From: an uncultured bacterium
GTDB lineage: Bacteria; DUMJ01
Assembly: GCA_937958695.1 (NCBI GenBank)
Contig: CALGNK010000016.1
Location: forward strand, 1-64,000
Length of the DNA: 64,000 bases
Direction of reading: 5' to 3'
Positions 3,661 to 21,663 of the stretch are shown here, in pieces (the first letter of the stretch is position 1; each line of letters begins with the position of its first letter). The notes beneath the pieces were generated by a model that saw nothing but the letters and a program-made list of their open reading frames with translations, did no database searches and was not told the DNA's origin. Both the position numbers and the translations under genes were made by a program.

Positions 3661-4874
3661 GAGAGTTTACATACAGAGCTAGGGAAAAAAGGACAGGGCG
3701 TTGGAGAGAGGGTGTTGCTTCTGCTGAAGATGAAAATACCGTTATAAGAAGACTGCAGGAACAGGAGCTTATAGTTGTATCTATAAAAGAAAAGAAAAAA
3801 TACTTTGATTTAAATACTGCTTTAATAAACTTACAGAGAGTCTCCCTTAGAGATTTGGTAGTATTCACTAGGCAGTTTGCCACTATGGTGAGGGCAGGGG
3901 TAGCTCTGGTTAGGGCATTAGGAATCCTCTCACAGGAGACAAGAAATCCTAGACTAAAACTTGCAATAGAAGATATAAGAAAGGAGGTAGAGAGTGGAAC
4001 AGCGCTATCTCAGGCGCTAGCAAAACACAAAGACATATTCCCAAGACTGTATATAAGCTTAGTTAGAGTTGGAGAAACAGGTGGAATATTAGATGTAATC
4101 CTAGATAGGCTAGCGGTATATTATGAAAAGAATGAAGAGATAACAAGGAAAATAAAGAGTGCTGCTGCATATCCTATAGTTATTATAATCCTAGCTATTG
4201 CTATGGTTATATTCTTACTAACATATGTCCTTCCCACATTCTTAAATCTTCTAATGTCCTTTGAAACTGCCATTCCGCTACCTACAAGAATAGTGATGGG
4301 AGCAAGTAATGCTATTAGAAACTATTGGTATATCGTACTCTCAGTAATCTTGGCATTATATCTTCTCTATAGACTAATCACCTCTAGGCCAAGGGGGAGA
4401 GAACTTTGGGATAAACTCAAACTTAGGATTCCAATTATAGGAAGGATATTAAAGCTTACTATTATCTCTAGACTCTGCCATACCCTAAGTATCCTCCTCT
4501 CTGGTGGTGTCCCCATTATAACCGCCCTTGAAGTAGTGAAAGAGACACTAGACAGTGTTCCCTATATGAATGCCATTGAGGATGCCAGGAGAAGGATCTC
4601 AGAAGGAGATCAACTTTCTGTTACCTTTATTAGGAGCAGTCTCTTTCCTCCGATGCTTGGGTATATGACAGCTGTAGGGGAAGAGAGTGGTTTAGTAGAC
4701 GAAATGCTTAATAGAGTTGGGATGTACTACGATGGTGAGCTTGATGCTATGATAAGCACACTTACCTCTATATTAGAACCCGTACTTATAATATTCGTTG
4801 GTGGATTAGTGGGTTTTATAGTAATTGCAATGTATATGCCTATATTCCAGATCATACAAACACTGATGAGATAA
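3657..4874 (+). CDS. pilC: Type IV pilus inner-membrane platform protein PilC
   Basis: Polytopic inner-membrane protein that couples the PilB/PilT motors to pilin assembly. It has two T2SSF domains: a cytoplasmic one at about residues 65-190 (LVVFTRQFATMVRAG, VGETGGILDVILDRLA) and a second at about 265-390 (ISRLCHTLSILLSGGVP, VGEESGLVDEMLNRV). Three hydrophobic segments lie near residues 170-200, 222-245 and 375-400. The 405 residues are full length. Neither a pilQ-type secretin nor pilMNO follows here; a secretin is encoded 7 kb away on the other strand and a prepilin at 62.5 kb. Confidence 0.95.
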   Translation: MREFTYRAREKRTGRWREGVASAEDENTVIRRLQEQELIVVSIKEKKKYFDLNTALINLQRVSLRDLVVFTRQFATMVRAGVALVRALGILSQETRNPRLKLAIEDIRKEVESGTALSQALAKHKDIFPRLYISLVRVGETGGILDVILDRLAVYYEKNEEITRKIKSAAAYPIVIIILAIAMVIFLLTYVLPTFLNLLMSFETAIPLPTRIVMGASNAIRNYWYIVLSVILALYLLYRLITSRPRGRELWDKLKLRIPIIGRILKLTIISRLCHTLSILLSGGVPIITALEVVKETLDSVPYMNAIEDARRRISEGDQLSVTFIRSSLFPPMLGYMTAVGEESGLVDEMLNRVGMYYDGELDAMISTLTSILEPVLIIFVGGLVGFIVIAMYMPIFQIIQTLMR

Positions 4875-5641: not shown

Positions 5642-6454
5642 ATGAGAGAGTATCTTAGATTATCTAATAATGACCTAATGTTTGTATTAGAAACATTATC
5701 TCCAGAATTAAAAAGCAGAATGGATACTATAAAAGATGATGAAGAAATAATATTAGGCATGCTAGAAGATTCTAGACTCTTTTCTAGGATAATGAATGAC
5801 GATGAGATAATGCTAAAGATATCTCCTAAGCTTTTCTTTACTGTTCTTATGATAAAGGCAAGGATAGACTTGAATAGAGAGGTCTATACTATAGAGAGGG
5901 ATAGGCATCATAAGATTCCAGTATTTGATATAGAAAAAGTAAGAGAGCTAATAAATGACGATGATATACTCAACTACCTCATAGATATGCTCGTGTCATT
6001 TACAAGGACAGAGAGTCAGACTATATACTATGTAGTTAAGGGGAGAAGGGGGCTTAGAAAGATAAAATTTTCCGATATAGATGTGTTCGACATGATAAGG
6101 CTGGCGGATATGATAGAGGAAGAGATGAGGTTCCCGGTCTATAAAAGAATAGGGGACATATGCCTCTGGCTTTTAGGTATATTCCCCGAATATGTTATGT
6201 CTAGGTCGTTTATACCTTCGAATCTATCTATAAGGGTAGGATTTAGATATAAATTAACTTTCGAAGAATACGAAGAGATTGGCAGGACTTTCTATAAACT
6301 TGCATCAAACGCTTATGATGCAAAAATATTTGGCTTAGATAAGCCTCTTTCAATACTTAGTGAGGAATTTACAATAGCTGAAAAACCATTAAATCTTATA
6401 TCTGAAAGGTATTTGGTCTTTAGAAAGGATAAGTGGTTTATCTCCTTAAATTAG
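5642..6454 (+). CDS. Unrecognised protein, mostly alpha-helical
   Basis: I do not recognise this 270-residue protein. It starts with a good GGAGG ribosome binding site 4 nt after birA, so it is a real last gene of the operon. It has no signal peptide or membrane segment and is rich in Asp, Glu, Ile and Arg. The first 160 residues look helical. The centre holds a hydrophilic segment with a paired His (RHHK). No cysteines cluster and no nucleotide-binding motif is visible. I considered ScpA because of its helical acidic character but saw none of its conserved N-terminal signature. Its stop overlaps the stop of the convergent response regulator by 4 nt. Confidence 0.8.
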   Translation: MREYLRLSNNDLMFVLETLSPELKSRMDTIKDDEEIILGMLEDSRLFSRIMNDDEIMLKISPKLFFTVLMIKARIDLNREVYTIERDRHHKIPVFDIEKVRELINDDDILNYLIDMLVSFTRTESQTIYYVVKGRRGLRKIKFSDIDVFDMIRLADMIEEEMRFPVYKRIGDICLWLLGIFPEYVMSRSFIPSNLSIRVGFRYKLTFEEYEEIGRTFYKLASNAYDAKIFGLDKPLSILSEEFTIAEKPLNLISERYLVFRKDKWFISLN

Positions 6455-7080
6455 AGAATGCCTTTTTTAATAGCATAAAGGATAGCCTCTGACCTATTTT
6501 TTATACCTAACTTCTGAAATATATTCGATATATGCGTCTTAACCGTGCTTTCGCTTATATATAGGGTTTCCCCAATCTCTTTATTCGATTTTCCCTTAGC
6601 TACTTCTCTAAGTATCTCTAACTCTCTAGGGGTAAGCACCTCCCCTAAGTTCTGGTTTTGTGATAGGAGATTTAATAGTTTACGGGATATGCGGGGATTT
6701 ATCATTGTGGTTCCTCTATAGACATTTTTTATAGCATTGACGAGATTTTCTAAAGAGATATCTTTAAGGATATAACCAACTGCTCCAGCTCTGAACATCT
6801 CCATAATAAGACTATCCTCTTCATAAACTGAAATAGCAATAACCTGGATAGAAGGATTTTTAGTCTTTATTGCTTTTGTAGCAGAGATTCCATCTATGTC
6901 AGGCATCCTAATATCCATAAGAATTATATCTGGGTTAAGCTGTTCCGCCTTCTCTATAGCCTCCTGTCCACCATAGGCTTTACCTACAACTTCTATCTCT
7001 TTTTCTCCTTCTAAGAGTTTAGCTATACCATCGCATATCAAAACCTGATCATCTACGATAAGGACTTTGATAGTCCTCAT
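6451..7080 (-). CDS. NarL/FixJ-family response regulator
   Basis: Cytoplasmic two-component response regulator of 209 residues. The receiver domain (1-120) has the acidic pair D10-D11, phospho-acceptor D56 in DIILMDIRMPD, a conserved Ser in AISV and Lys in LKD. The C-terminal LuxR-type helix-turn-helix (about 145-209) reads LTPRELEILREVAKGKSNKEI, then STVKTHISNIFQKL. I chose the ATG at 7080 because GGAGGAGG lies 8 nt upstream. A longer frame from 7104 would have no ribosome binding site and would run into the kinase gene. It lies 10 nt downstream of its partner kinase. Confidence 0.93.
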   Translation of the reverse strand: MRTIKVLIVDDQVLICDGIAKLLEGEKEIEVVGKAYGGQEAIEKAEQLNPDIILMDIRMPDIDGISATKAIKTKNPSIQVIAISVYEEDSLIMEMFRAGAVGYILKDISLENLVNAIKNVYRGTTMINPRISRKLLNLLSQNQNLGEVLTPRELEILREVAKGKSNKEIGETLYISESTVKTHISNIFQKLGIKNRSEAILYAIKKGIL

Positions 7081-7090
7081 CTGCCTCCTC

Positions 7091-8584
7091 CTATAATGGG
7101 ACATAAAATCTTACCCTAGTCCCTCTAGAAGGAACACTTGTAATCTTGAAATCACCCTCTAAAGATTTTATTCTATCTTCCATCATCCTTATACCAAAAG
7201 AGTTACACTTGTCTTTCAAAGTCTCGTAGTCAAATCCAATACCGTCATCTACAATATCTACATTAATTCCATTTTCATCAACTCTAAAATCTATATCGAC
7301 TAAACTCGCTCCGCTGTGTCTTCTTACATTTACTATTGCCTCCCTTATTACAGAGAAAATCGTCTCTCTAATCCTCTTAGGTATAAGTCTTTCATTACCA
7401 CTTAAAGTAAGATTAAACTTAATTCCAGATACCTTTTCTATCCCCTCTATGTATTTCCTCAGATTTTCAAAGAATCCCCCATCTAATATTATAGGTTTCT
7501 CTTCGTATATGATGCATCTTACATCGTTCAATACATTCTTTAATAAAATCTCAAGATCATTTATATCTTCAAAAACATCCTTCGATAATTTTTTCTTCTT
7601 TATATATTGAGCCTTTAATATCCCCTCGGTTATCCCTTGGCATACCCTATCGTGGAGGATGTTTGTTATTCTGATCCTTTCTTCTCTTGATACCGCTTCT
7701 CTCAAAGACAAATAATTCGAGAGGTTTTTAATAGATAAGGTTACATCTCTTAACAAAACCCTTAATCTTTTTATCTCTCTAGACTCAGGCAGATTCCCTT
7801 CAAAGGCTAGATAAATAGCTCCAAATATCTCATCCTTATGTATAAAGGGGAATACTATGGTGTTTCCTATAAATATCTCTTTCTTCTCATACATAGCCTT
7901 ATTAAACAGGTTCTCTATATCCTTTCTTAGATCCTGCAATAACTCATCAGGGATGGTACCAACTATTCTAAAGGTATCCCCTTCGTAAGTTCCTATAGCC
8001 CCAGATGAAGCCTTAGCAAACCTTACTAAATCTTGCAAGAGGTGCCTCATCATAAAATTTAGATTTCTATGCTTAGAGATATTCCGTATTATCCTGTATT
8101 GTGCCCTTATTCTCCTAGTATGTTCCAGACTTTTATGAAAAGCTAAGACACCTCTCATAAGAGTGCTAAAATATCTACTGAGAAGATTAGCAAACTCCAA
8201 ATCTTCCATAGAAAAGGCTTCTTTATCTAGAGAACGATTTATATTTATAACCCCTATTCTTTTTTCTCCATCTAAAACTGGTAATACAATAGAAGAACTG
8301 ATATCGCTTCTTGTAAGGGGTTTTCCTAAGAATGTATCTCCACTATTAAGTATTAAAGATACCTTTTTCTTTAATGCATATCCCGCTATTCCTTCACCAA
8401 GGGATTCTCTTACTTTTTCTGCTACTTCAGAAGGGATACCTCTATAACTAGTAATCCTGAGTACCTTTTCTGTAGAATCTAAGAGCATAACTGAACCGCT
8501 ATCCCCCTCCAACATATTTAAGACCATACTTAAAACTTGAGACGACAAGCTTTTAACCTCTCTATATCTCAAGTCTAGAGACAT
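7091..8584 (-). CDS. GAF-domain sensor histidine kinase (HisKA_3, NarX/DesK type)
   Basis: Soluble kinase of 497 residues. Two GAF-like domains cover about residues 1-145 and 165-290. They are followed by a HisKA_3 dimerisation domain with the phospho-acceptor in LHDRVCQG (H311) and a HATPase_c domain with the N box near 405-420, DDGIGFD at 446-452 and SFGIRMMEDRI at 462-472. No transmembrane segment is evident, so it should sense a cytoplasmic ligand or redox state through its GAF domains. GGGAGG precedes the ATG. It forms an operon with the NarL-type regulator at 6451-7080, the usual partner of HisKA_3 kinases. Confidence 0.92.
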   Translation of the reverse strand: MSLDLRYREVKSLSSQVLSMVLNMLEGDSGSVMLLDSTEKVLRITSYRGIPSEVAEKVRESLGEGIAGYALKKKVSLILNSGDTFLGKPLTRSDISSSIVLPVLDGEKRIGVININRSLDKEAFSMEDLEFANLLSRYFSTLMRGVLAFHKSLEHTRRIRAQYRIIRNISKHRNLNFMMRHLLQDLVRFAKASSGAIGTYEGDTFRIVGTIPDELLQDLRKDIENLFNKAMYEKKEIFIGNTIVFPFIHKDEIFGAIYLAFEGNLPESREIKRLRVLLRDVTLSIKNLSNYLSLREAVSREERIRITNILHDRVCQGITEGILKAQYIKKKKLSKDVFEDINDLEILLKNVLNDVRCIIYEEKPIILDGGFFENLRKYIEGIEKVSGIKFNLTLSGNERLIPKRIRETIFSVIREAIVNVRRHSGASLVDIDFRVDENGINVDIVDDGIGFDYETLKDKCNSFGIRMMEDRIKSLEGDFKITSVPSRGTRVRFYVPL

Positions 8585-8680: not shown

Positions 8681-10483
8681 TCATAATTTATAGTCGAACC
8701 TAAGATATAATAACCTTCCATAAGATGGACCTATGATATTATCGAGATAACTTGAATCTCGATTTTCATACCCTATAGTAAATAAAAGAGACTTTGTCAA
8801 TTCAAATCTCATCTCTATTCTAGCCGAGGAGAGTAAACTAGCATTCGAAGTTCTAAAATACTCTAGAGTTAATGCACTATAATCAGTTATCTTATAATTA
8901 ATGGATAGATTTATTCCAATATCTGCATAGGACTGACTCTTAATATTGTCATTCATTAATACTCCAAATAGTCTACCTTTAAGAGTTAGATATGAAAGTG
9001 GATATGTCTTTTCCTCTATAAATGTACTTAGGACATCTATAGACAATCTCTCATTCCTGGCTAGCCTATACGAGAGGCCAGTTATAATATCAGATATCAG
9101 CTGGTGATTAAAGCTCAAGTCTAAGCTTTTCAATCCATCTTGTATATAGATTCCCTCTAAGATAAGAGTATTCTTATCACTTATAGGAATATTACCATCT
9201 ATGATTATACCAGATCTTACAGTTGTACTAACAGGGTTACTTGTTGATAGGTCAATTATTGTAACTGGTCCTCCAGAAATAACCAAACCTCTAGGTTCCT
9301 CTCTCTTTTTTCCTGGTAATTTAGTCGAAATATATGTACTAGTTTCTAAGGCTGGTAATACACCTCTTACTAGTTCCTCGGGGACCTCCCTGGCGTAGAG
9401 TAAGACAGTAAAAGAATCTCTTAACATTTCATTAGAGCCTATATGTGGCCTAAAGGCTCCAAATCCTCTTGATAATTCTCTATAATCAGTTATTCCCCCA
9501 AGAATAGCTATCTTATCTGGTTCTAAAGATACTACTGTTTTAGTAGAGCCCAAAGATTTCTTAAGGTCCCCTTCTATATAACTAGCAAGTAGTTCCAGAT
9601 TAAGCCTTACCTTGTTATCTATAACCTCAGCGGAAATACCCATCTCTATATCTGCAGAGAAAGGTACCGTAGTAGTATAGTTTTCTATCGAAAATGTCCT
9701 AAATGTCTTCTCTTCCAATAGTATACTAGATCTTTCCCCTTCTAAGACCAAGAACTTAGATCTAGCAGACTGAACAATATTATTTCTCTTCTTTAGGATA
9801 TCCATAATAACATCTATGTTAGTGGTATTATTATAGAAATATCCAAGCGTTAAATCGGCAAAGTATATACCGGTACTATAAACCTCAGATTCTCCATCTA
9901 ACTTCCATTTCACATTTACATCTGTAGGTAATATCTTACTTATCTCGCTATAAGAGGTCTTGGTGTAAAGGACGTCTACATAGACAAGGCGGGAAGGCCT
10001 ATCTATCTCTCTAATCTTACTGACTATGTTATCTATCATAGAATTTGGAGCGGTTATAGAGATCATATTCAAAGAGCTATCTAATCTTACAAACTGAGAA
10101 AAGGTATCACTTATCTTCTGTCTCATTGCTTCTACAGATAGATATTTAGGTCTATAAAAGATGGTCTTTGAAAGGTTATTAAAAATAACATTCTTTATAT
10201 CTGGAGAACCAACTAGATAGTAGCCTTCTTTTTTGGCATATACGTATCCATAGTTAGATAAAATGATATCCAAAGCCCTTTCCAAAGGCATATCTTTAAG
10301 ATCAGCAGAGACAAAACCTTCCACTGTATTATCTAACACTATTATTACCCCTGTCTGGCTCGAAATATCTCTAAGTGCCTGTCTAATATCTGTATCTACA
10401 AATACATTATTCACAAGGCTTTCAGCGTTTAAATTAAAAGGTAAAAGTAAGAAGATAATAAAAATAAATAAAATATTTTTCAT
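8681..10483 (-). CDS. Degenerate secretin paralogue with C-terminal beta-barrel-like extension
   Basis: A 600-residue exported protein with a signal peptide (cleavage after about residue 20, LNAE). Its N-terminal STN/N0-like domain (NVFVDTDIRQALRDIS) is nearly identical to that of the secretin encoded just upstream, so the two arose by duplication. A short N1-type domain and a secretin-like core follow. The core lacks the family signature VPxLGDIPxLGxLF; the equivalent region reads GAFRPHIGSNEMLRDS. The last 200 or so residues are amphipathic beta strands resembling an outer-membrane barrel, ending in RFDYKL. It may be a modified outer-membrane pore or a partner of the true secretin. The order of domains is visible in the sequence; the function is inferred. 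Confidence 0.75.
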   Translation of the reverse strand: MKNILFIFIIFLLLPFNLNAESLVNNVFVDTDIRQALRDISSQTGVIIVLDNTVEGFVSADLKDMPLERALDIILSNYGYVYAKKEGYYLVGSPDIKNVIFNNLSKTIFYRPKYLSVEAMRQKISDTFSQFVRLDSSLNMISITAPNSMIDNIVSKIREIDRPSRLVYVDVLYTKTSYSEISKILPTDVNVKWKLDGESEVYSTGIYFADLTLGYFYNNTTNIDVIMDILKKRNNIVQSARSKFLVLEGERSSILLEEKTFRTFSIENYTTTVPFSADIEMGISAEVIDNKVRLNLELLASYIEGDLKKSLGSTKTVVSLEPDKIAILGGITDYRELSRGFGAFRPHIGSNEMLRDSFTVLLYAREVPEELVRGVLPALETSTYISTKLPGKKREEPRGLVISGGPVTIIDLSTSNPVSTTVRSGIIIDGNIPISDKNTLILEGIYIQDGLKSLDLSFNHQLISDIITGLSYRLARNERLSIDVLSTFIEEKTYPLSYLTLKGRLFGVLMNDNIKSQSYADIGINLSINYKITDYSALTLEYFRTSNASLLSSARIEMRFELTKSLLFTIGYENRDSSYLDNIIGPSYGRLLYLRFDYKL

Positions 10484-10492
10484 CTTCTCCTC

Positions 10493-11707
10493 TTACTTAG
10501 GAGATTCAAGCTCATTTACTATTTTGCAAGTAAGAAATATCAATATATCACTGATCTCCTTAGTCTTTCTCTTACTAGAAAATAATGCTCCTAAAATGGG
10601 GATATCTCCCAATATAGGGACTTTATCTATTACTTCTCTTTCGATCTCTTGTTTTAATCCTCCAATAACTACTGTTTGATTATCCTTTATCCTAATTGTA
10701 GTAGATACTATCCTTCTTAATGCGGTAGGGGTCTCTACCCCCATCTGAACATCGCTAACCTCCGTTGATATTGTAAGAAAAAGGCTATCCGGTTCATTTC
10801 CATCTGATTCTATAACCCTAGGAAGTATCTTTAGTATAATGCCACCCTTTATCATCTGTAATGTCCTAGTTAGTGTTGTCTCTGTTCCAGTAGTAATAAT
10901 GACGTATTCCTCCCTACCAAGCTCTATAGATGCCTCTTTACCATCTAAGGTTGATATCTTTGGTGATGCCTTGACCTTTGCCTTTCCCTCTTCAACCAAA
11001 GCCTTCAGTTTGATAAATATCTTCTGTGCAGAGTCTAGGTTAAATACTATTCCACTAGCATAGGAATAATTAAGTCCTACCGTCCCTGTAGTGTCAGTTA
11101 CTTCACCGGTTGGTAAAGATATGCCAAAGCTACCCTCTAAACTCTCTCCACCGCTCTCTGATAATTCTAAGACAACACTCTCTATTATTACCTGTTTCCT
11201 AGGTTTATCTAGTTTGGATATATCCTGTTTTATCCTTTCTATAATCTCTCTTGAGGATGTAACAGTTATTATGTTGTTTATGGGATCAACCTTTATATAT
11301 GGAGAGTAAAAATCGCTTAATAAGCCTGCTACCGACCTTGCATCAAGATATTTTATCTTTATATGCTCAGTAGTTGTAAGGTTGTTAAATGTGGTACTTT
11401 TTGTATCTGGTAACCCTACCAGATAATAATCCCCCATCCACTTATATGTATAACCACCGCCTGCTAAGACTATCTCCAGGGCTTTTTCTAGAGGGACATC
11501 TTTTAAATCTGCCGTTATCCAACCTTGAACCGTATTATCGGCGATAATATTAATCCCAGCCTGAGCGGAAATATCTCTAAGAGCCTGACGGAGCTCTGTA
11601 TCAACAAAGACGTTAGTTATAAGTATATCCCTTGTAGGGACACTAGCTATAGCAGTTGACCAGGGTAGTAAAGATGCTACTAATAAAATAAATAGGAACC
11701 TTCTCAT
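10493..11707 (-). CDS. Secretin (PilQ/GspD family), short form
   Basis: Outer-membrane secretin of 404 residues with signal peptide (first about 20 residues), an STN/N0 domain (residues 28-85), an N1-type domain (about 110-165) and the secretin core. The core ends with the diagnostic VPILGDIPILGALF at residues 363-376, followed by SDILIFLTCKIV. It lacks extra N2/N3 repeats and an S domain, so it is minimal. It sits in the secreted-protein operon rather than with pilBTC, starting 4 nt inside the preceding gene (ATGA). It could serve the type IV pilus or, as the operon suggests, a dedicated export route for the small secreted proteins upstream. Confidence 0.88.
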   Translation of the reverse strand: MRRFLFILLVASLLPWSTAIASVPTRDILITNVFVDTELRQALRDISAQAGINIIADNTVQGWITADLKDVPLEKALEIVLAGGGYTYKWMGDYYLVGLPDTKSTTFNNLTTTEHIKIKYLDARSVAGLLSDFYSPYIKVDPINNIITVTSSREIIERIKQDISKLDKPRKQVIIESVVLELSESGGESLEGSFGISLPTGEVTDTTGTVGLNYSYASGIVFNLDSAQKIFIKLKALVEEGKAKVKASPKISTLDGKEASIELGREEYVIITTGTETTLTRTLQMIKGGIILKILPRVIESDGNEPDSLFLTISTEVSDVQMGVETPTALRRIVSTTIRIKDNQTVVIGGLKQEIEREVIDKVPILGDIPILGALFSSKRKTKEISDILIFLTCKIVNELESPK

Positions 11708-13335
11708 TCCTTAACCTCCTCTTTTTTCTCTATTTTAAACTCCTTCTCGAGCGTTGCCCATCTCTTTTCTCCAAAATTTACCTTAACAACCGCTATATAC
11801 TCTCCAGGCTCAATAGGTTGAGTGTAGAGGAGCATAAATTGTCTTATCCCTTCAGGTAAGACGATTACCTCTCCATCAGAGAATGGAATCTCTTCTACTA
11901 ATACTTTGGGCTTCTCCTTATCGGCTCCCTTTGTCTTTATGGTGAGGAATGCACTAGCCTTTAGATGTATATTCCCTGTATTTTTAAATAGAGCCAAGAA
12001 CTGTGGAAAGGCGGATTCTCCAAAACCTACCAAATTGATATCCTGAACCTCTCCTGAGTATTTTAAGTCTCCAGGGACAGTAACCAGATACAGTGTATCT
12101 AATATAGTAACAAGTCCCTCTTTAGAGGATGGGTCTGAAACCTCAAAAGAAACATTAGCATATCTACCACCAGGCTTTATATCCCTAGGTGGTGTTACAT
12201 TAACCCTAACTGAACGTCTCTCATTTGGCTTTAATGAAAAACTATTAATGTCGGTCTTTATCCAGTCCACAGAGGAGTATCTAGTATCTTCCGTCTCAAT
12301 AATCTCTCCATTTAACCCTAAGGCTACGTGCTTAGCGCTGACCTTTACATCTACAGACCTCCCTGTCATATTTTGAATAGTTATAACAGAGCTTCTAAAT
12401 GCTCCCGGTGGGGCGGTTATCTCTTGTAGAGAAGGTTCTGCTATAACGTCGATACCTTTACCCCCAGCCAATATCCCAAGTTTAACCTCCCCAGTAGATA
12501 CACTAAATGGAATACTAGCCTTTAATGTGGTAGGAACTCCATATCTTATATACGCATCTGCTATATACTCCCCAGGGGGAAGCATCCTTATGATACTTTT
12601 AAGCTCTGCCTCTGCACCAGGAAATAAAAGTCCCATACCACCACCAAGAGGGATCTCTCTAATCCTTCTACCCAATCTTGATTTTATAATAAGTGTCCCT
12701 TTAGTTTGAACTGTAATATTGCCTTGATTCTTCAATAGGGCAGTAAAGGCTATCATATTGTTATTCTCTATCCTTACGTTCTCTACGTTAAATTCTACTA
12801 GATTTACCTTTCTATCAATCTTCCCTCCAGGTATCGTAACACTTACTATACTTAGTATCTGGGTGGTTATAGTCAAACTGGCAAGCCCTTCCTCCTCCCC
12901 CGCAGAGGTCTTTTTCTCAGGTAAAAGTTCAAATAGTATTGCAGAATATCTGCTCCCATTTACACCTCTAGGTATTGTTACAGAACATTCAATAATCTTT
13001 CCCTCTTGTCCTCTTAATGTTACCTCGCTAGGAGATACTTTTATCCACTCACTACAATCCCAGGGATTTGTCTCATCCTTGGTTAAAAACTGAAAATAAC
13101 CAGCCCTATTTACCTTTACAGGAACAGATCTAATCCTAAAGTTCCCAACACTGCTGGGTTCACTCTCATTTACAAGTAGTATCTCAAACTTCTTAGTCAC
13201 CCCTGGATATGAGGTGATTTCATTGAAAAGAGGTGTTACACTTATATTAATTTGAGAGTAAACTTGAAAAATAAAAGAAAAAAAGATTACTAGCGTAATA
13301 GCTACTGTAACTAGAGTGCAAGCCTTTTTACACAT
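11704..13335 (-). CDS. Secreted tandem Ig-like protein, chaperone-like (DUF916/PapD-like fold suspected)
   Basis: A 543-residue protein with a signal peptide (first about 27 residues). It has two tandem copies of a two-domain beta-sandwich module. Copy 1 runs about 28-285 and copy 2 about 290-535. Each copy contains a W..WI motif (CSEWIKVSPSEV; VDWIKTDINSF), then a P...GGRY(S/A) strand and a closing PGEYIA(D/V) strand. The same module occurs once in the protein at 15544-16332. The pattern recalls periplasmic pilus chaperones or the cell-surface DUF916 family, but I cannot confirm either. AAGGAGGT precedes the ATG. It is followed immediately by the secretin gene. Confidence 0.8.
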   Translation of the reverse strand: MCKKACTLVTVAITLVIFFSFIFQVYSQINISVTPLFNEITSYPGVTKKFEILLVNESEPSSVGNFRIRSVPVKVNRAGYFQFLTKDETNPWDCSEWIKVSPSEVTLRGQEGKIIECSVTIPRGVNGSRYSAILFELLPEKKTSAGEEEGLASLTITTQILSIVSVTIPGGKIDRKVNLVEFNVENVRIENNNMIAFTALLKNQGNITVQTKGTLIIKSRLGRRIREIPLGGGMGLLFPGAEAELKSIIRMLPPGEYIADAYIRYGVPTTLKASIPFSVSTGEVKLGILAGGKGIDVIAEPSLQEITAPPGAFRSSVITIQNMTGRSVDVKVSAKHVALGLNGEIIETEDTRYSSVDWIKTDINSFSLKPNERRSVRVNVTPPRDIKPGGRYANVSFEVSDPSSKEGLVTILDTLYLVTVPGDLKYSGEVQDINLVGFGESAFPQFLALFKNTGNIHLKASAFLTIKTKGADKEKPKVLVEEIPFSDGEVIVLPEGIRQFMLLYTQPIEPGEYIAVVKVNFGEKRWATLEKEFKIEKKEEVKE

Positions 13336-13371
13336 CTTGTTACCTCCTTATCGATTTAAATTATAAATTCA

Positions 13372-13392
13372 GGGGGCCCCTAAGGAGCCCCC
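13372..13392 (-). terminator. Hairpin between the small secreted protein genes and the downstream secretin genes
   Basis: A 9-bp GC-rich stem (13372-13380 with 13384-13392, one G-U pair) closes a 3-nt loop, 8 nt after the stop of the gene at 13401. On the minus strand it is followed by a U-rich stretch (TGAATTTATAATTT). It could terminate most transcripts and so give the small secreted proteins much higher expression than the chaperone-like protein and secretins. Confidence 0.7.
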
Positions 13393-13400
13393 TTAAAACA

Positions 13401-14075
13401 CTACTGTTTAAAATAACCAGTCTCTGGATCTATCCAAGCTTTAATTACTGTAAGTGATAGGAATATCTTAGCATCGTTTTGATACTCACATGCCCTTGTC
13501 TTGGGATAACCACCCTCTGGGTCTTCTCTTATTACAAACTTTATCCATAGATATCCTTCATGATAGCAGAACGGAATTAAAGCTTGGGATGGTAACTGGG
13601 TAGCTTTAACCCACTCAGTTGGCATAGTATCTTTATCTTCACTAAGTCCATAGAATGTCTCTATAGCTTCACCTTGATCGTTCTTTAGATCATCAAAACC
13701 TTCCGCTGTTACTAATACATCTGCATTGGACTTTACCCAGCCCTTTATTGGTCCTGCAACATATACCCCTGGCTTTCTTACTTTGATGTTCCATCCCTGG
13801 GCTCCTAACTCCCATTTTATCCACTGGGCGATAGATGCATGAGTTGCAACATCGATAGTCCAGGTCTTCTTATTGCAGAAACCACTTAAAGCATTACCCT
13901 GATGCCAAGCACGAGCATTAGCTTGAAGACCTCCCAAAGGTTCTGGGACCCAAGTGTTTCCATCCCATCTCCATACCTGTGTTTCCTGTTGTATAGTTAA
14001 CTCACTTGCCCAAGCTAAGCTAGCTATACCCATCACTAAACTTAATACTAGTAGTACTAACAAACCCTTTTTCAC
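13401..14075 (-). CDS. Small secreted protein, SGxCNK family member A
   Basis: A 224-residue exported protein from a GTG start 9 nt after GGAGG; the frame could also open at a TTG three codons earlier. The signal peptide ends about LAWAS. The mature part contains VWRWDG..WV, ARAWHQGNALSGFCNKKTW and IDVATHASIAQW. Its second half has IREDPEGGYPKTRACEYQ and a closing VIKAWIDP. It is clearly homologous to the next gene upstream and, in its N-terminal third, to the protein at 14874. Three conserved cysteines could form disulfides. I know of no named family. Its position and strong translation signals suggest a structural or surface subunit. Confidence 0.85.
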   Translation of the reverse strand: MKKGLLVLLVLSLVMGIASLAWASELTIQQETQVWRWDGNTWVPEPLGGLQANARAWHQGNALSGFCNKKTWTIDVATHASIAQWIKWELGAQGWNIKVRKPGVYVAGPIKGWVKSNADVLVTAEGFDDLKNDQGEAIETFYGLSEDKDTMPTEWVKATQLPSQALIPFCYHEGYLWIKFVIREDPEGGYPKTRACEYQNDAKIFLSLTVIKAWIDPETGYFKQ

Positions 14076-14107
14076 TTCAATCAACCTCCTTTTATAATTT
14101 TTGAAAA

Positions 14108-14797
14108 CTAATTACCTTCAGCAAAAATACCTAAGCCACCCGCATCTAACCAGGGTTTATAAACTGTTACTGTAAGCTTTATCTGGGCATCGTCTTGATA
14201 CTCACACGCCCTTGTCTTGGGATAACCGTCTCCTGCGTCTTCTCTTACGTTAATCTTTATCCACAGGTGGGTGCTATGCGTACAGTATGGGACTCTAAGA
14301 GTCTCTTGGTCTAGCTCTTTTGCCGGGTACCATGTTAGACCATTTGGATATGACTGTCCAAAGGCATACCAAGTCTCTATAGCTTCTCCATCGGCATTCT
14401 TTAGGTCATCAAATCCGGAGAATGTTACTATGACATCTGCATTAGACTTGATAGTTGCACCGATGCAATTGGCTATATATATCCCTGGCTTTCTTACCCT
14501 GAAATACCAACCTTGGGCAGAAAGATTCCACTTTATCCACTGGGCAACAGATGCATGTGTAGCAACATCAATAGTCCAAGTCTCTTTATTGCAATAGCCA
14601 CTTTGAACAACACCCTGATGCCAGGCACGAGCCTTAGCATTCTTCGCACCTGTAGGTTCTAAAAGCCATCCTCCAGTTTCATCATCCCATCTCCATACCT
14701 TAACCTCATCTTGGAGCTGTAGCTCACTTGCCCATGCTAGACTTACTATCCCCATTAATAGAGCTGTTACTATTCCTACCAATAATATCTTCTTCAC
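14108..14797 (-). CDS. Small secreted protein, SGxCNK family member B
   Basis: A 229-residue exported protein, paralogue of the gene at 13401. I place the start at the GTG at 14797 because AAAGGAGGTGA, an essentially perfect anti-16S match, lies 4 nt upstream. The longer open frame to 14893 would add residues in front of the signal peptide. The signal peptide ends about LAWAS. Shared motifs are VWRWDDETGGW, ARAWHQG, SGYCNKETWTID, VATHASVAQWIKW, VREDAGDGYPKTRACEYQ and a final VYKPWLD. No catalytic motif is evident. The function is unknown; an abundant surface or fibre protein is a reasonable guess. Confidence 0.85.
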   Translation of the reverse strand: MKKILLVGIVTALLMGIVSLAWASELQLQDEVKVWRWDDETGGWLLEPTGAKNAKARAWHQGVVQSGYCNKETWTIDVATHASVAQWIKWNLSAQGWYFRVRKPGIYIANCIGATIKSNADVIVTFSGFDDLKNADGEAIETWYAFGQSYPNGLTWYPAKELDQETLRVPYCTHSTHLWIKINVREDAGDGYPKTRACEYQDDAQIKLTVTVYKPWLDAGGLGIFAEGN

Positions 14798-14873
14798 AAT
14801 TTCACCTCCTTTCGAATTAAATCTTATATAAACAGGTAGAGGATTTCCCCTACTTATGTTAACTGCAAGACAA

Positions 14874-15554
14874 TTATTTTTCGCCATATGCAATCACCAA
14901 TATTTCACCAGTTGTTATAGAATACCCGGTTCCACCAATTGTATAATTTAACGTTGCACCTTTATTTAGATAATATGTCCCGGGTGATGTAAATTCCTGC
15001 TTACCTCCCGGATTTAGCTTTGTATAAACCTTGAGTATCAATTCTGCCTCCCCAGAAAAGTTATTACCTATTATCCAAGTAATGTAGGTGTGGTACATCT
15101 GTCCAGGACCATATGTATAGTTTACTGTCCCCTGAGAGACATAGAGAGGTGGGTCTTGAACCCCAAGCTGTGGTTCAAAGGTATCTTTGACAACTACATT
15201 ATCTATGGGATTATTAGAAGATATCTTTATTATTATCTTCCATTCCGCATATTGGTGTGTTGGAACTCTAAATGTACCATCGGGCAGTATCTCAATGTTG
15301 GATGTTACAGGAACTGCAATCTTACTAAAGTTAAATTCAGGAATCTCGACCTTTGCCTTTGTAGAGACATTTATCTCCCAGATGCTCTTATTACAATATC
15401 CACTAACACTATCCCCTAGACCCTCAGCAGAACCGTATGGATTTAGACCATCTAATTTTTCCCACTGTCCTGTATCTGGGTTATAGCGGTAAAAACTCAT
15501 ACCAAGCATTAGAAACATAAAAAAGACTAATAAAAACTTTGTATTAAATCTCAT
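14874..15554 (-). CDS. Secreted DUF11-like protein with SGxCNK N-terminal motif (member C)
   Basis: A 226-residue exported protein. The ATG at 15554 is preferred (GAAGGTGG upstream, followed by a clear signal peptide); it overlaps the preceding gene by 11 nt. After the signal peptide comes YRYNPDTGQWEKL, then SVSGYCNKSIWEINVSTKAKV, the same N-terminal motif seen in members A and B. The rest is different: an Ig-like domain resembling DUF11 repeats (DNVVVKDTFEPQLGV, then YITWIIGNNFSGEAELILKV). It is probably a minor or tip component of whatever A and B form. That role is an inference from gene order and shared motif. Confidence 0.8.
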   Translation of the reverse strand: MRFNTKFLLVFFMFLMLGMSFYRYNPDTGQWEKLDGLNPYGSAEGLGDSVSGYCNKSIWEINVSTKAKVEIPEFNFSKIAVPVTSNIEILPDGTFRVPTHQYAEWKIIIKISSNNPIDNVVVKDTFEPQLGVQDPPLYVSQGTVNYTYGPGQMYHTYITWIIGNNFSGEAELILKVYTKLNPGGKQEFTSPGTYYLNKGATLNYTIGGTGYSITTGEILVIAYGEK

Positions 15555-16332
15555 AGCCCACCTTCCCACTAATTTTTTCTTCGATACAACTGTCAGCGCC
15601 ATAGTTTACTTTCAGATAAGCTGTAAAATCTCCAGGCTTTGGATGTCTCCAGACGGTCCTAATTATCCTTCTTCCTTCGGGAAGTATTGTAGTTGCATCC
15701 TTTAGAGGTATAGTCCTTATCCTTTTATCCTTAGCATCCTTTATATTTACACTCCCTTCTAACTTCAAAAACGTATTCCCTAGATTTCTCAATGCTGTAG
15801 AAAAGATTACCTCTTCTGGGGTATTCTTCTCTATAGTGAAGGATTCTAAAGCTAATCTTTTTCTCTCTGTTGATGGTATGGAAATAAATACTAATGTCCC
15901 TGTTTTGATCTTAACCATCATACTTCTAGAGATGCCTTCGCTACTATTTATGTCAAAGGTTATTGCTGAATATCTTCCACCGGAAGCATCAGAAGGGACT
16001 AAAATTCTACCTTTAACGTCATAGTTGTCCCCAGGAGGTATAATAAAGTTTTTATCCTCTAAAGTGATCCAATCTCTACAGCTCCACTTATCAGGCTCAT
16101 CAATTATCACTAATGTTCCATTTTCCTCAAATATAAATGATGATACGCTACTCTTTACCTTTAATATTGAAGCACTTAGATTAATAAGAGAGATAGAGAA
16201 GTCGTACTTAGTTTTAGGTGCCAGAGAAAGTTCTATTATTGATGGGGAAATACTAACCCTTATCTCTTTTAGAGGATCCTCAACTAGATATGATGAACCA
16301 AATAGTCTAGTACAGATAAGTATTTTCTCCAT
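15544..16332 (-). CDS. Single-module Ig-like chaperone-like protein
   Basis: A 262-residue protein with one copy of the module that is duplicated in the 543-residue protein of this operon. Shared landmarks are an opening ISPSIIELSLAPKTKYDFSI, CRDWITLEDKNFIIPPG, ASGGRYSAITFDI, NLGNTFLKLEG and the closing PGDFTAYLKVNYG. It starts with a TAATG overlap with the preceding gene and GGTGG upstream. Unlike its relatives it lacks an obvious signal peptide (MEKILICTRLFGSSYL is only weakly hydrophobic). Its export route is therefore unclear, or the N-terminus may be damaged. A periplasmic chaperone for the small secreted proteins is one hypothesis. Confidence 0.75.
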   Translation of the reverse strand: MEKILICTRLFGSSYLVEDPLKEIRVSISPSIIELSLAPKTKYDFSISLINLSASILKVKSSVSSFIFEENGTLVIIDEPDKWSCRDWITLEDKNFIIPPGDNYDVKGRILVPSDASGGRYSAITFDINSSEGISRSMMVKIKTGTLVFISIPSTERKRLALESFTIEKNTPEEVIFSTALRNLGNTFLKLEGSVNIKDAKDKRIRTIPLKDATTILPEGRRIIRTVWRHPKPGDFTAYLKVNYGADSCIEEKISGKVGYEI

Positions 16333-17258
16333 TATAGTCCACCCTGGAATAGAAATGTTAAACTTCCCATATACTCTCCAGCCAAGACAGATTCATCGGT
16401 TTTAAGTTTAAAATCAAGAGGTATTGTAAACTCTCCCTTCTTATTACCGGTAAGTATGGTTATATAGGAGTTGGAAAGTTGTAAATAATCATTATTGCCA
16501 ACTTTTATATATAAACGACTAGGTGGTATAGGCGGAATTGTTTTATTCTTATACTTTTTAGACTCCTCGTACTCTACTAATTCTGTAGCTTTGCACTGAA
16601 CAGACCAATTTTTATTGTTAGTCTTTATCTCTAACATTAAAGTCTCCATAGATTCCCACTCACCAGGTCTAGGAACTAAGAATGATAACGTATTTGGTGT
16701 GATATTTATAGTATCTTGAGGCTTTTTTATCTTTCTTCTAGAATCAGATAAGATAGTTACCGAAAATATCGGCTTTATCGTTATAGTGATCGGCAAAGAA
16801 TAAATCTTGGTAAATTCTTCCTTCCCATTTGAGATATGTCTATAGCTAAAAAGAATACTACCCTGATAAAACCCAGGTTCATCTGACCAGCTCGGCTTAT
16901 ATATTATATTCAGCCTGGGAATGAATACCGAATTATTTCTTTTACCTCCAGCAAGTCTTACCTTACTGTTAAAAGGTGTAAAAAATGTATCAAATGGGTT
17001 TATACCAAGTGCAAATAGGAACCTCTCTCTGGGAATTCCTACTATATCTAATTCGCAGAATAATTCCCAGATATCTGCGTCTATAGAACCTGTTACATCT
17101 ATATGTTGTGCATATATATCTGAGATCTTATCTACTATAAACTCTACTTTGGAAGGGGTAAATGATATAAAGGTTAAGGCTTTATTCTGTGAAAAGCCAC
17201 CAGGTATGATTAAAACTATTAAACTGATAATTTCTAATAACGTGATCAATCTTTTCAT
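16332..17258 (-). CDS. Unrecognised secreted beta-rich protein, first gene of the secreted-protein operon
   Basis: A 308-residue exported protein with a signal peptide ending about GGFSQ. I place the start at the ATG at 17258, 5 nt after GGAGG. The frame can be opened earlier by a GTG at 17270, but that overlaps the ribosome binding site. The mature part appears to be two beta-sandwich domains, each closing with a similar strand (PGFYQGSILFSY at mid-protein, AGEYMGSLTFLF at the end). I recognise no family. It is the first gene of the operon and shares the closing GxYxGSxxF strand style of Ig-like adhesin or chaperone domains. Confidence 0.75.
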   Translation of the reverse strand: MKRLITLLEIISLIVLIIPGGFSQNKALTFISFTPSKVEFIVDKISDIYAQHIDVTGSIDADIWELFCELDIVGIPRERFLFALGINPFDTFFTPFNSKVRLAGGKRNNSVFIPRLNIIYKPSWSDEPGFYQGSILFSYRHISNGKEEFTKIYSLPITITIKPIFSVTILSDSRRKIKKPQDTINITPNTLSFLVPRPGEWESMETLMLEIKTNNKNWSVQCKATELVEYEESKKYKNKTIPPIPPSRLYIKVGNNDYLQLSNSYITILTGNKKGEFTIPLDFKLKTDESVLAGEYMGSLTFLFQGGL

Positions 17259-17562
17259 CATTACCTCCACCTATAGGATAAATCAAGGGGAATGCGTTTA
17301 CTATCGGCTGGAGGTATACTTTTTGTCATACTTTTGTAGACTCTTTTGAATCATACTAAAGTATGGTGGATTTGATCCTTAGTATGATGTGAGATAAAAG
17401 ATATTAGTTAAAAAGAGTTAAGGTCTCGAGAAACCCCCGAGACCTTACCCTAGAGAGGAGGATATATCTAAATTGGTCTATATTAAAAATACTCTAAAAC
17501 TTTACAAGAGGTTCGAAACAATGATATCATTATAGAAAAATTTTTAGGGAGGTATTTTATAT
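17259..17562. other. 304-bp divergent intergenic region with hairpin and possible promoters
   Basis: No gene was found here. Besides the CATACT cluster it holds a perfect 10-bp inverted repeat (TAAGGTCTCG at 17419-17428 and CGAGACCTTA at 17438-17447) around a 9-nt loop. On the minus strand the repeat is followed by a short U-rich stretch. It could attenuate a transcript entering the secreted-protein operon, or form in the leader of the plus-strand gene. For the gene at 17563 a weak promoter TTTACA (17501) with TATCAT (17525) is visible, spacer 18 bp. Confidence 0.55.
17314..17388. promoter_or_regulatory. Cluster of CATACT half-sites in the divergent intergenic region
   Basis: Within 75 bp there are GTATAC (17314-17319), TCATACTTTT (17326-17335), ATCATACTAAAGTATG (17350-17365, itself a palindrome CATACT-aa-AGTATG) and TTAGTATGAT (17379-17388). 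The last is the perfect inverted partner of ATCATACTAA at 17350-17359. A possible minus-strand promoter (TCTACA, 16 bp, TATACC at 17313-17340) lies inside the cluster. This looks like a multi-site operator for the secreted-protein operon. Confidence 0.5.
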
Positions 17563-18081
17563 ATGAAAGTTGATGGAGGTATCTTTTGGGGACTATTATT
17601 AGTGGTTATAGGGATATTGGTTATTCTAAAATATAGTCTTCACCTTAATATCTCGATTTTTAGGATAGTGATAGCCATAATACTTATATATCTTGGAATT
17701 TCTCTAATTATAGGGCAGTGGCGGATAAGAAATGAAACTAATATTATATTCAGCGAAGGGACTATTAGACCAGAAACTTTAGAAAAGGCTTACAATGTAG
17801 TATTTGGAAGAGGATATATAGACCTAACCGGTATTGCTCCAAGCGAATTTGATAAATCTATTAAGATAGCTACAGTATTTGCCAATACCACATTAAGGAT
17901 AGACCCCAATATGCCTATAGAGATAGATATAGATTGTGCTTTTGGAAGCACAATAACTCCTGATGGAACAAGCATATCTTTTGGTGATAGAATTTATAAG
18001 ACACCTAGTGCGACTAATAGTCAATCATATCTCAAGATAAAAGCGGATACAGTCTTTGGAGTATTGGAGATAATACAGTAA
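17563..18081 (+). CDS. LiaF/toastrack-domain membrane protein
   Basis: A 172-residue protein with two N-terminal membrane helices (about 6-24 and 33-52). They are followed by a beta-solenoid-like domain resembling the LiaF C-terminal or toastrack domain (VVFGRGYIDLTG, KIATVFANTTLRID, DCAFGSTITPDG, ADTVFGVLEI). Relatives in Firmicutes sense envelope stress together with a LiaS-type kinase. Here the nearest such kinase is 9 kb away, so a functional link is speculative. GGGAGGT precedes the ATG. It may be the first gene of an operon with the CHASE2 cyclase and the Crp-like regulator. Confidence 0.82.
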   Translation: MKVDGGIFWGLLLVVIGILVILKYSLHLNISIFRIVIAIILIYLGISLIIGQWRIRNETNIIFSEGTIRPETLEKAYNVVFGRGYIDLTGIAPSEFDKSIKIATVFANTTLRIDPNMPIEIDIDCAFGSTITPDGTSISFGDRIYKTPSATNSQSYLKIKADTVFGVLEIIQ

Positions 18082-19749: not shown

Positions 19750-20422
19750 GGTAGAGATTTTAAAAAGTGTACCTATCTTCTCCAGATTAGATATAGAATC
19801 GCTTCAAAGGATAGCGGAGATATCTGTAGAAAGGTACTATGAAAAGGGTGAGGTCATTCTCTTACAAGACACAAAGGTAGACGGACTCTACATAGTAGTA
19901 AAGGGTAGTATTAGAATAAGTAGGCTCTCTGAAGATGGAAGGATAAAGACCTTAGCAATCCTCTCAACTGGGGATATTATAGGTGAGATGTCTATACTTG
20001 ATGAGGAATCAGCATCCGCAACGGCAGAAACTATAGAAAATTCCCTTTTACTCTTCATAAAAAGAGGTGACTTCCAGAACATCCTATTGAAATATCCATC
20101 TATCACTCTTAGTATAGCGCAGATACTAGTTAAGAGACTTAGAGTAGCAGACGAAGAGATTGAAAACCTTACCTTTTACAATGTAAGGGCTAGAGTTATT
20201 AAGACACTGATAGAATTGGCTAATAAATATGGAGAAAGGATCCCTCAAGGCGTAAAGATTTCTCTTAGGTTTACCCAACAAGACCTGGCAGATATGGTAG
20301 GTTCTTCAAGAGAAACGGTCTCAAGAATAATAAGCACCCTAGAAAAAGAAAAGATAATAACTAACATTGGAGGATACACAGTAATAAACGATATAGACCA
20401 GCTTAAAGGGCATTTTCTTTAG
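19742..20422 (+). CDS. Crp/Fnr-family transcription regulator
   Basis: A 226-residue regulator. The cyclic-nucleotide-binding fold covers about 5-125, the long dimer helix about 125-150 and a winged helix-turn-helix 165-220. The recognition helix SSRETVSRI keeps R190, E191 and R195, equivalent to the CRP residues that read TGTGA. In the nucleotide pocket G81-E82 is present but the Arg that contacts the cAMP phosphate in E. coli CRP (R82) is Ala91 here. cAMP binding is therefore doubtful. It has no Fnr-type cysteine cluster. It overlaps the cyclase gene by 8 nt, an arrangement that suggests a shared pathway, and a consensus target site lies 1.3 kb downstream. Confidence 0.92.
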   Translation: MDKVEILKSVPIFSRLDIESLQRIAEISVERYYEKGEVILLQDTKVDGLYIVVKGSIRISRLSEDGRIKTLAILSTGDIIGEMSILDEESASATAETIENSLLLFIKRGDFQNILLKYPSITLSIAQILVKRLRVADEEIENLTFYNVRARVIKTLIELANKYGERIPQGVKISLRFTQQDLADMVGSSRETVSRIISTLEKEKIITNIGGYTVINDIDQLKGHFL

Positions 20423-21054
20423 CGACCTTTAGGGCGATTATCCCCATCTTTGCCAGAACTTTTACCCTCTTGCCTATGTTGGTATTGTTCTAATTTCTCT
20501 TCTTTCCTTCTTTCACTAGCTGGATTTATCTCAGGAGGAGATTTAGGTCTTACTATACCAGATTCTCCCTTCCTAAGTCTAAGTGTCCTTCCCTGGGCAG
20601 TTAAATCAACTTCACCTTCATATACCGTCACAATAGTGGTCTGGTCTTCCAAAACCTCTACACTAAACTCTGTTCCCCTAACACCGGCTATTGCAGAGGG
20701 TGTCCTTACTTCAAAGTTAGGGAATAACTTTGTTATGTAAAGCTTTATATAGCCTATGGCTAGAGAGATATAGTCTTTATATATTGACACCTCAGTGTCT
20801 GGACTTATCTTAACTATACTTCCATCAGAAAACCTTAATTCTGCATAGCTATTTTCTCTAGTTTTAAGTGAATCTCCACTATCTAATATATCTCCTTTAT
20901 TGACAGGGATCCAGATATTATGGGGATTAATCTTTTTTAGAACAGTCCCTTCTATCCTGGTAATAGTAGCTTTATATGGAGAGACTATATTTATTGAACT
21001 CCCCATAATAGTTAAAGCTATTATTAAAATAAGAAAGACTTTTGAATCTTTCAT
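20419..21054 (-). CDS. FecR-domain secreted protein
   Basis: A 211-residue protein with an N-terminal hydrophobic segment (signal peptide or anchor, about 5-25) and a FecR domain: LKTRENSYAELRFSDGSIVKI, then VRTPSAIAGVRGTEFSVEV and TTIVTVYEGEVDL. The C-terminal 45 residues are hydrophilic and rich in Lys, Arg, Glu and Gln. FecR-like domains of this secreted type often co-occur with CHASE2 proteins and outer-membrane proteins, and a CHASE2 cyclase is adjacent here. AGGAG precedes the ATG. Its stop overlaps that of the convergent crp-like gene by 4 nt. It follows the Gln-rich protein gene across a strong hairpin. Confidence 0.88.
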   Translation of the reverse strand: MKDSKVFLILIIALTIMGSSINIVSPYKATITRIEGTVLKKINPHNIWIPVNKGDILDSGDSLKTRENSYAELRFSDGSIVKISPDTEVSIYKDYISLAIGYIKLYITKLFPNFEVRTPSAIAGVRGTEFSVEVLEDQTTIVTVYEGEVDLTAQGRTLRLRKGESGIVRPKSPPEINPASERRKEEKLEQYQHRQEGKSSGKDGDNRPKGR

Positions 21055-21105: not shown

Positions 21106-21663
21106 TTACTTTCTACCACTATGTCCATGCTGTTCTTTATGTTCCTGCTGGCCGGTCTGAGTTTGTTGATGGATCTGTTGCTGAATCTGCTGTTGAACCT
21201 GGGTTGTTTGCTGCTGATTATACTGTTGTGTTTGTTGTCTAGTCTGCTGTTGAACCTGCTCCTTATTGGAAAGCCTTTTTGCCTCTCTAAGCAGGTACTC
21301 CAATCCTCCAGACTCTCCTCTATCTTTTTTGTTTATAGTTAGTCCTAACTTAGAAAGTTTAACACCAAAATAACTGGCAACTTCACCCCAACCTAAGTCG
21401 TTCTCCTCTGCATAGTTTATCACCTCTTCTAAACTTTTGCCACTTTCAGTTGCTATGATGCATATTATTGCGATCTCTCCATAACCGTATCCTTGAACTC
21501 TTAACTGGTTGATCAATTCTTCTGTAAGAAGATCGCCAAACACTAACAGCAGATTACTTACCAGTCCTTTATTCTCACCTAATGGGGCACTATCGTCTGC
21601 CATGGCTAGTATTGGCATTAAGATTATACTAGCCACCAAGATACCTATCAATAACTTTTTCAT
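21106..21663 (-). CDS. Secreted protein with Gln-rich C-terminal tail
   Basis: A 185-residue exported protein. The signal peptide ends after about residue 22 (LAMADD). A helical middle (residues 30-110) contains two related segments: YGYGEIAIICIIATESGKSLEEVI and LGWGEVASYFGVKL. The last 55 residues are a low-complexity stretch of Gln, Thr and His (QQQ runs ending in HKEQHGHSGRK). I recognise no named family. Similar GxGE-type helical repeats occur in secreted bacterial proteins of unknown function. The C-terminal tail could bind metal through its His residues or self-associate. A CRP-type site sits exactly at a class II position in its promoter. Confidence 0.78.
   Translation of the reverse strand: MKKLLIGILVASIILMPILAMADDSAPLGENKGLVSNLLLVFGDLLTEELINQLRVQGYGYGEIAIICIIATESGKSLEEVINYAEENDLGWGEVASYFGVKLSKLGLTINKKDRGESGGLEYLLREAKRLSNKEQVQQQTRQQTQQYNQQQTTQVQQQIQQQIHQQTQTGQQEHKEQHGHSGRK

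Follow-up and report, generated by a model that had tools for sequence, protein, structure and literature searches.

Known secretins are pores driven by inner-membrane motors, and known strand-exchange pilins use ushers; what, then, is a secretin doing in a gene cluster that joins it to immunoglobulin-like (Ig-like) proteins and small secreted proteins and encodes no ATPase? The question is raised by a locus of an uncultured bacterium (GTDB lineage DUMJ01; contig CALGNK010000016.1), of which we analysed a stretch of 64,000 nucleotides, here called the window. The cluster spans positions 8681-17258 and consists of eight open reading frames (ORFs), all on the minus strand, in the order U-Ig1-C-B-A-Ig2-S-D, where S and D are secretin relatives. 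We find that this cluster is a conserved and coherent unit, and we propose, with a probability of about 0.6, that its products form a dedicated apparatus for export and assembly in diderm bacteria, in which periplasmic chaperones resembling the Ig-like protein of Gram-positive WxL clusters (WxLIP) pass pilin-like subunits on to a short secretin of their own, much as in a chaperone-usher pathway but with other parts. Throughout the text loci, genomes and contigs are cited by our own L, G and C numbers.

A cluster conserved as a unit

A secretin alignment of five rows, to which no Ig sequence contributed, served to scan the genomes of 84,980 species. The scan returned 30 loci under some 15 phylum-level labels, as given in record titles: Aerophobetes, Caldatribacterium/Atribacteria, Planctomycetes, Scalindua, Phycisphaerales, WOR-3, KSB1, Calditrichaeota, Thermotogota, Armatimonadetes/Fimbriimonadaceae, Abditibacterium, Limnochordaceae, Rhizobiales, Berkelbacteria and others. 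Nearly all genomes in the comparison are metagenome-assembled. A six-frame profile search found a double Ig gene adjoining the secretin in 24 of the 30 loci, a count that includes L103, where the Ig gene is divergent and ~6.2 kb off, and L094 and L123, where one module matched; the remaining six loci extend no further than 3.2 kb on the 5' side. The profile search gave no Ig match at any of 26 other secretin loci of the same genomes, a few of which are short contigs. Sequence identities among the relatives fall to 20-40%. Closer to the host, two congeneric genomes retain the gene order, unbroken in one (L017/L095) and across two contigs in the other (G001); the sampled relatives included no further member of the host's family. 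An earlier reading made from the window alone (the sequence-only reading) had held that secretin homologues beside pilMNOP, with the small proteins scattered, would argue against a dedicated system. The opposite was found: the homologues adjoin the double Ig gene, and the two occur together, usually with small secreted genes, in many phyla.

Starting from the Ig proteins, relatives were found by profile in 52 of 386 sampled genomes, many of them beside a barrel-like protein of ~800-1200 amino acids; in four unrelated genomes from this search the barrel protein gives way to a short secretin, with the double Ig gene next to it or nearby, and one of the four (L054) shows the order of the window (U, U, Ig1, A-like, Ig2, a further gene, S).

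A separate secretin clade and a relative with a barrel-like tail

S (10493-11707) is the true secretin that it had been taken for, with a PF00263 match at E 1.2e-37 preceded by one Secretin_N domain and an STN (N0) domain in Pfam. Its sequence stops right after the core, and neither the sequence nor Pfam reveals further N domains, a lipobox or an S domain. It scores well below the NCBIfam cut-offs for PilQ (162 bits vs 284), GspD (148 vs 351) and SctC (126 vs 238), the last being our sole test for a type III secretion system (T3SS), whose other core genes were not searched for; it also falls under the cut-offs for MshL and HofQ. Compared with 21 other secretins, those linked to Ig genes group in a single clade (SH-aLRT 100, branch length 0.78), with the PilQ and GspD types apart. 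The host's second secretin is a PilQ encoded on a different contig (C18, locus L023), where pilMNO and pseudopilin genes adjoin it, and S is thus not the host's type IV pilus (T4P) secretin. No relative of S was found in viral contigs.

D (8681-10483) is a paralogue whose N-terminus repeats that of S (46% over 176 residues, congener's D vs S). As the description of D as a degenerate secretin anticipated, Pfam matches its STN and Secretin_N domains and gives no secretin-domain match; the barrel-like character of its tail is read from the sequence, in which ~200 β-rich residues contain many stretches of alternating hydrophobicity. The last residue of most D homologues is aromatic, as in the β-signals of outer-membrane proteins (GFRF, LRITF, LSFEF). 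Full-length counterparts are present at L096:3003-4907, L103:9926-11764 and L105:1247-3061, the first of which retains a recognisable secretin core in addition to the tail. Thermotogota proteins in the position of D retain no more than a core remnant and the tail, and their N-terminal part matches the core of S (hhalign probability 77, E 1.9e-5); when these barrel proteins are compared by profile with the window's D itself, the match is not convincing (probability 5). D is a secretin relative whose tail would have barrel topology. Genes of ~400 amino acids between Ig2 and S in L106 and L108 were considered as counterparts and rejected, as they are not D-like.

Two side observations concern the distribution of S. 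In L123 (Berkelbacteria GW2011_GWE1_39_12), of the Candidate Phyla Radiation, the S-type secretin follows straight after the Ig gene and is the genome's only secretin match; this group is usually thought to have no outer membrane. One Fimbriimonadaceae genome carries two separate S-type loci (L156, L112).

Ig proteins related to WxLIP

The repeated module of Ig1 (15544-16332) and Ig2 (11704-13335) is the WxLIP unit, DUF916 followed by DUF3324. The sequence-only reading had recognised the shared modules, one in Ig1 and two in Ig2; each module is in fact two Ig domains (DUF916-like and DUF3324-like), so that Ig1, with one unit, holds two Ig domains and the "double" Ig2 holds four. A profile of Ig2 matches the solved Enterococcus faecium WxLIP (EfmWxLIP1) at E 2.7e-11, and PF06030 (DUF916) is weak and under cut-off in the window protein (E 1.8e-4) and above cut-off in L021. 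The predicted structure of Ig2 (pLDDT 82.5) matches both WxLIP (TMt 0.51-0.53) and CfaA, the chaperone of CFA/I (TMt 0.55-0.56). This homology and fold similarity strengthen the earlier suggestion that the Ig proteins are chaperones. Neither protein has a C-terminal transmembrane helix; both end in soluble, charged sequence, as would suit a periplasmic carrier.

Small secreted proteins with a pilin-like fold

A (13401-14075) and B (14108-14797, the mature protein starting at 14728) are small secreted paralogues (60%) of a family with the consensus ARAxxSGxxxGxCNKxxW...VAQW...VRKPG.Y...SNGDV...GFDDL...ACEYxD. Its alignment (A7) takes in nine loci outside the genus, and relatives of A and B lie beside Ig2 in eight such loci (L097, L100, L103, L104, L109, L115, L119, L120); in L102, L106, L108, L110 and L122 other small secreted genes take their place. 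C (14874-15554), also secreted, had been counted as a third paralogue, and it shares with A and B only an N-terminal part (YRYNPxTGxW...SGxCNK; YRYNPDTGQW and SGYCNK in C itself). The remainder of C, a "large-subunit-like" protein, is a different, DUF11-like domain, and this middle domain aligns with larger subunits in L100:5986-7311 and L104:6073-7080. U (16332-17258), likewise subunit-like and with a signal peptide, contains two β domains that each end in '(P/A)G.Y.G.I.F'; L097, L101, L102, L106, L108 and L110 have relatives of U, placed upstream of either Ig1 or the secretin. None of Ig1, A, B, C and U is named by Pfam or NCBIfam, and no WxL domain was matched by Pfam in A, B, C, U or their relatives, nor in the PDB for A and B.

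The AlphaFold2 model of B (pLDDT 89.5, pTM 0.72), a pilin-like β sandwich, gave three Foldseek matches in the PDB under E 0.001, all to CfaB (E 2e-4), followed in rank by FimA, TasA (E 3.7e-3), Pyrobaculum pili, CsuE, CooA, CS20 and PapA. The modelled likeness to donor-strand pilins lends weight to the view that the small proteins are subunits.

A hairpin after the subunit genes

Between A, the last subunit gene, and Ig2 the window encodes an RNA hairpin of 10 bp (13371-13393, minus strand, -20.8 kcal/mol). All 12 loci in which this gap is at least 50 nt have a strong hairpin there (-13.8 to -31.2 kcal/mol), in a comparison chosen after seeing the window; z-scores are -2.2 for the window and -2.6 for L095. 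The gaps between subunit genes and between Ig2 and S are mostly free of hairpins, and some long spacers elsewhere in the loci fold well too. The hairpin is probably a partial terminator or an mRNA stabiliser. In fimbrial operons a hairpin after the subunit genes leads to subunits in excess of the export parts, and by analogy its position here suggests the same.

A proposed pathway and its rivals

Strand complementation is known for CfaA and CfaB. It is also predicted for WxLIP with WxL proteins, into which a β-hairpin of the DUF916 domain is predicted to insert (PMC10599100). In the pathway that we favour, Sec would carry the components into the periplasm, where Ig1 and Ig2 may bind and stabilise the β-sandwich proteins A and B, and probably U as well, with β-strand complementation as the most likely mode; the hairpin would limit read-through or protect the upstream mRNA, such that subunits would be in excess. 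Chaperone-subunit complexes would dock on the N0/N1 ring of S, and the subunits would leave through its pore and might form a polymer or coat on the surface. D may assist in positioning S in the outer membrane or in gating it, standing in for the missing pilotin and S domain. Since the cluster encodes no ATPase, the energy would come from subunit folding or strand exchange. The fully specified version, a "chaperone-secretin pathway" of many deep-branching phyla in which donor-strand pilins, fed in by WxLIP-type Ig chaperones, pass through a dedicated, ATPase-free secretin paired with a barrel-tailed one, has in our estimate about even chances.

Several observations count against this proposal. 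The TM-scores of the B model against pilins are 0.33-0.49, all <0.5, and are therefore evidence of fold class only. The most significant structural matches of Ig2 are axonemal multi-Ig proteins, whose stronger E-values come with the wide distribution of the Ig fold, and no Pfam match to PapD was obtained at E<=1 among the eight products. U and Ig2 bear signal peptides; in Ig1 none is recognisable in any of the three congeners (MEKILICTRLF...), unlike in Ig1 relatives elsewhere (e.g., L097:5859-6719). Finally, T2SSF is present in 27 of the 28 genomes with an S locus, and in the Planctomycetes and Scalindua loci genes for GspE, GspF and a pseudopilin-like protein follow at 0.8-9 kb downstream, so that an inner-membrane motor could be shared.

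The last point is the basis of the main rival, in which S is an alternative secretin of the T4P or type II secretion system (T2SS) machinery, using its GspE, GspF and pseudopilus, with the Ig proteins and the small proteins as accessory surface proteins that it secretes or displays. The N0 domain touches the inner-membrane platform in T2SS and T4P, and S retains an N0-like domain. GspE, GspF and pseudopilin genes near L098 and L102 are in keeping with this account, as is the host's own genus: the cluster itself is, as first noted, free of GspE, GspF and pseudopilin genes, yet pilB, pilT and pilC lie within the window at 902-4874, on the opposite strand and 4-8 kb from the cluster. We nevertheless judge it unlikely. 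GspE or GspF lies close to just 3 of 29 S loci, and the figure for the control loci with other secretins is 12 of 26; the contig that carries T2SSF bears another secretin, not S, in several genomes (e.g., G403:C7, G407:C4, G410:C14); one genome (G405, incomplete) has S and no T2SSF match; and the separate clade and low family scores of S set it apart from the secretins of such machinery.

Less probable still is a diderm equivalent of the WxL cluster in which the Ig proteins are structural and peptidoglycan-linked and anchor A, B and U as a coat, with the secretin a mere anchor or pore and neither hand-off nor fibre. The homology of the Ig proteins to WxLIP speaks for it, and the WxL cluster also joins one WxLIP with small and large partners (PMC10599100), the latter paralleled here by C and the large subunits. 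Set against this are the failure of A, B, C and U to match a WxL domain, the soluble C-termini of Ig1 and Ig2, the closest resemblance of B being to pilins that polymerise, and the dedicated secretin clade. That unrelated surface proteins merely share an operon through neighbourhood inertia is already disfavoured and very improbable: the cluster is seen almost exclusively in metagenome-derived genomes, but it recurs under all these phylum-level labels at low identity, with the double Ig gene at 24 of 30 S loci and at none of the 26 controls.

Comparison with known systems

The favoured export and assembly system shares features with four known ones. With the Gram-positive WxL cluster (a DUF916/DUF3324 WxLIP with small and large WxL proteins) it has in common the sequence and fold of the Ig modules (TMt ~0.5) and the clustering of small and large secreted β proteins with an Ig protein; it differs in having no detected WxL domain, no C-terminal transmembrane anchor, a duplicated Ig unit in Ig2, a dedicated secretin with a barrel-tailed companion, and mostly diderm hosts. 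Class 5 fimbriae (CfaA-CfaB) of the chaperone-usher type also combine a two-Ig-domain protein and a subunit of similar folds, the lack of an ATPase and a hairpin after the subunit genes. Here, in contrast, no PapD family match is found and the pore is a secretin; nor does any of the eight products match an usher (PF00577-type) in Pfam or NCBIfam, in line with the sequence-only reading. T4P PilQ, T2SS GspD and T3SS SctC have in common with S a true secretin core, an N0 domain and one domain of N1 type, whereas S is short, Ig-linked and in a clade of its own, in a cluster without ATPase, platform protein or pseudopilin. For the TasA/TapA fibres of Bacillus, whose TasA is among the matches of the B model, a partner protein that complements a strand is reported (PMC10151520); here SipW and TapA were not recognised and an outer-membrane secretin is present.

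Because the defining features of every system tested are lacking, we regard the cluster as a new kind of system whose parts themselves belong to known superfamilies. No earlier description of a secretin/chaperone, donor-strand/secretin or WxL/secretin system was found in the open-licence papers searched, which is no proof that none exists. If the proposal is right, a further kind of surface-assembly machine would become known, a motor-free secretin with WxLIP-type chaperones and pilin-like subunits; the WxL system of Gram-positive bacteria would be tied to the envelopes of diderms, and hypothetical genes of Thermotogota, Atribacterota, Planctomycetota and other phyla could be assigned functions that can be tested. 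Two protein types would be new as well, the SGxCNK subunit family and the secretin with a barrel-like tail fused to it.

The same Ig family occurs in a second, wider type of locus (L020, L055, L056, L059, L060, L064, L067-L069, L072), mostly with a single-module Ig protein, small secreted proteins and a barrel-like protein of ~800-1000 amino acids. The barrel-like proteins carry SdrD_B/CarboxypepD and sometimes T2SS-T3SS_pil_N or Cu_amine_oxidN1 domains. In such loci (e.g., L020, L055, L067, L072) a barrel-like protein of ~1000 amino acids replaces the secretin pair. Their layout is like that of usher loci, yet when tested as candidate ushers these proteins matched no usher among Pfam or PDB sequences and showed mostly SdrD-type and transthyretin-like domains. 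For this reason the earlier proposal that a secretin replaces the usher, which fits the layout of the cluster, is kept as an analogy.

Gene calls and genomic surroundings

The ORFs were called by a simple caller, and improved starts are given above for U (17258), C (15554), A (14075) and B (14797, a GTG after AAAGGAGGTG). U, Ig1 and C overlap by 1-11 nt, the start of Ig1 overlapping the stop codon of U, and Ig2 and S by 4 nt; the gaps are 76 nt (C-B), 32 nt (B-A), 65 nt (A-Ig2) and 9 nt (S-D). The ORF check and the two congeners thus bear out the eight minus-strand genes, their order and their tight spacing as first read.

Downstream of D, on the same strand, lie genes for a GAF histidine kinase (7091-8584) and a LuxR-type response regulator (6451-7104), both possible regulators, the kinase being no part of the machine. 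The kinase is kept in the congeners and is also found near the Caldatribacterium locus L103; 5 of 29 S loci have a LuxR-type regulator close by, as do 0 of 27 loci in the control list, which contains one contig-edge S locus (L150). In both congeners a divergent polysaccharide deacetylase gene stands beside U (L017:12283-13539, L019:2619-3917); it is missing from that place in the window (17270-17563). Just downstream of S loci L098 and L102, pseudopilin-like N-methyl and FecR fusions (L098:4576-5820, L102:11954-13216) are followed by two GspE genes and one GspF gene. In the window, a secreted FecR-domain protein (20419-21054) and a secreted protein of 185 amino acids with no function assigned (21106-21663) are both conserved near the locus in congener G002.

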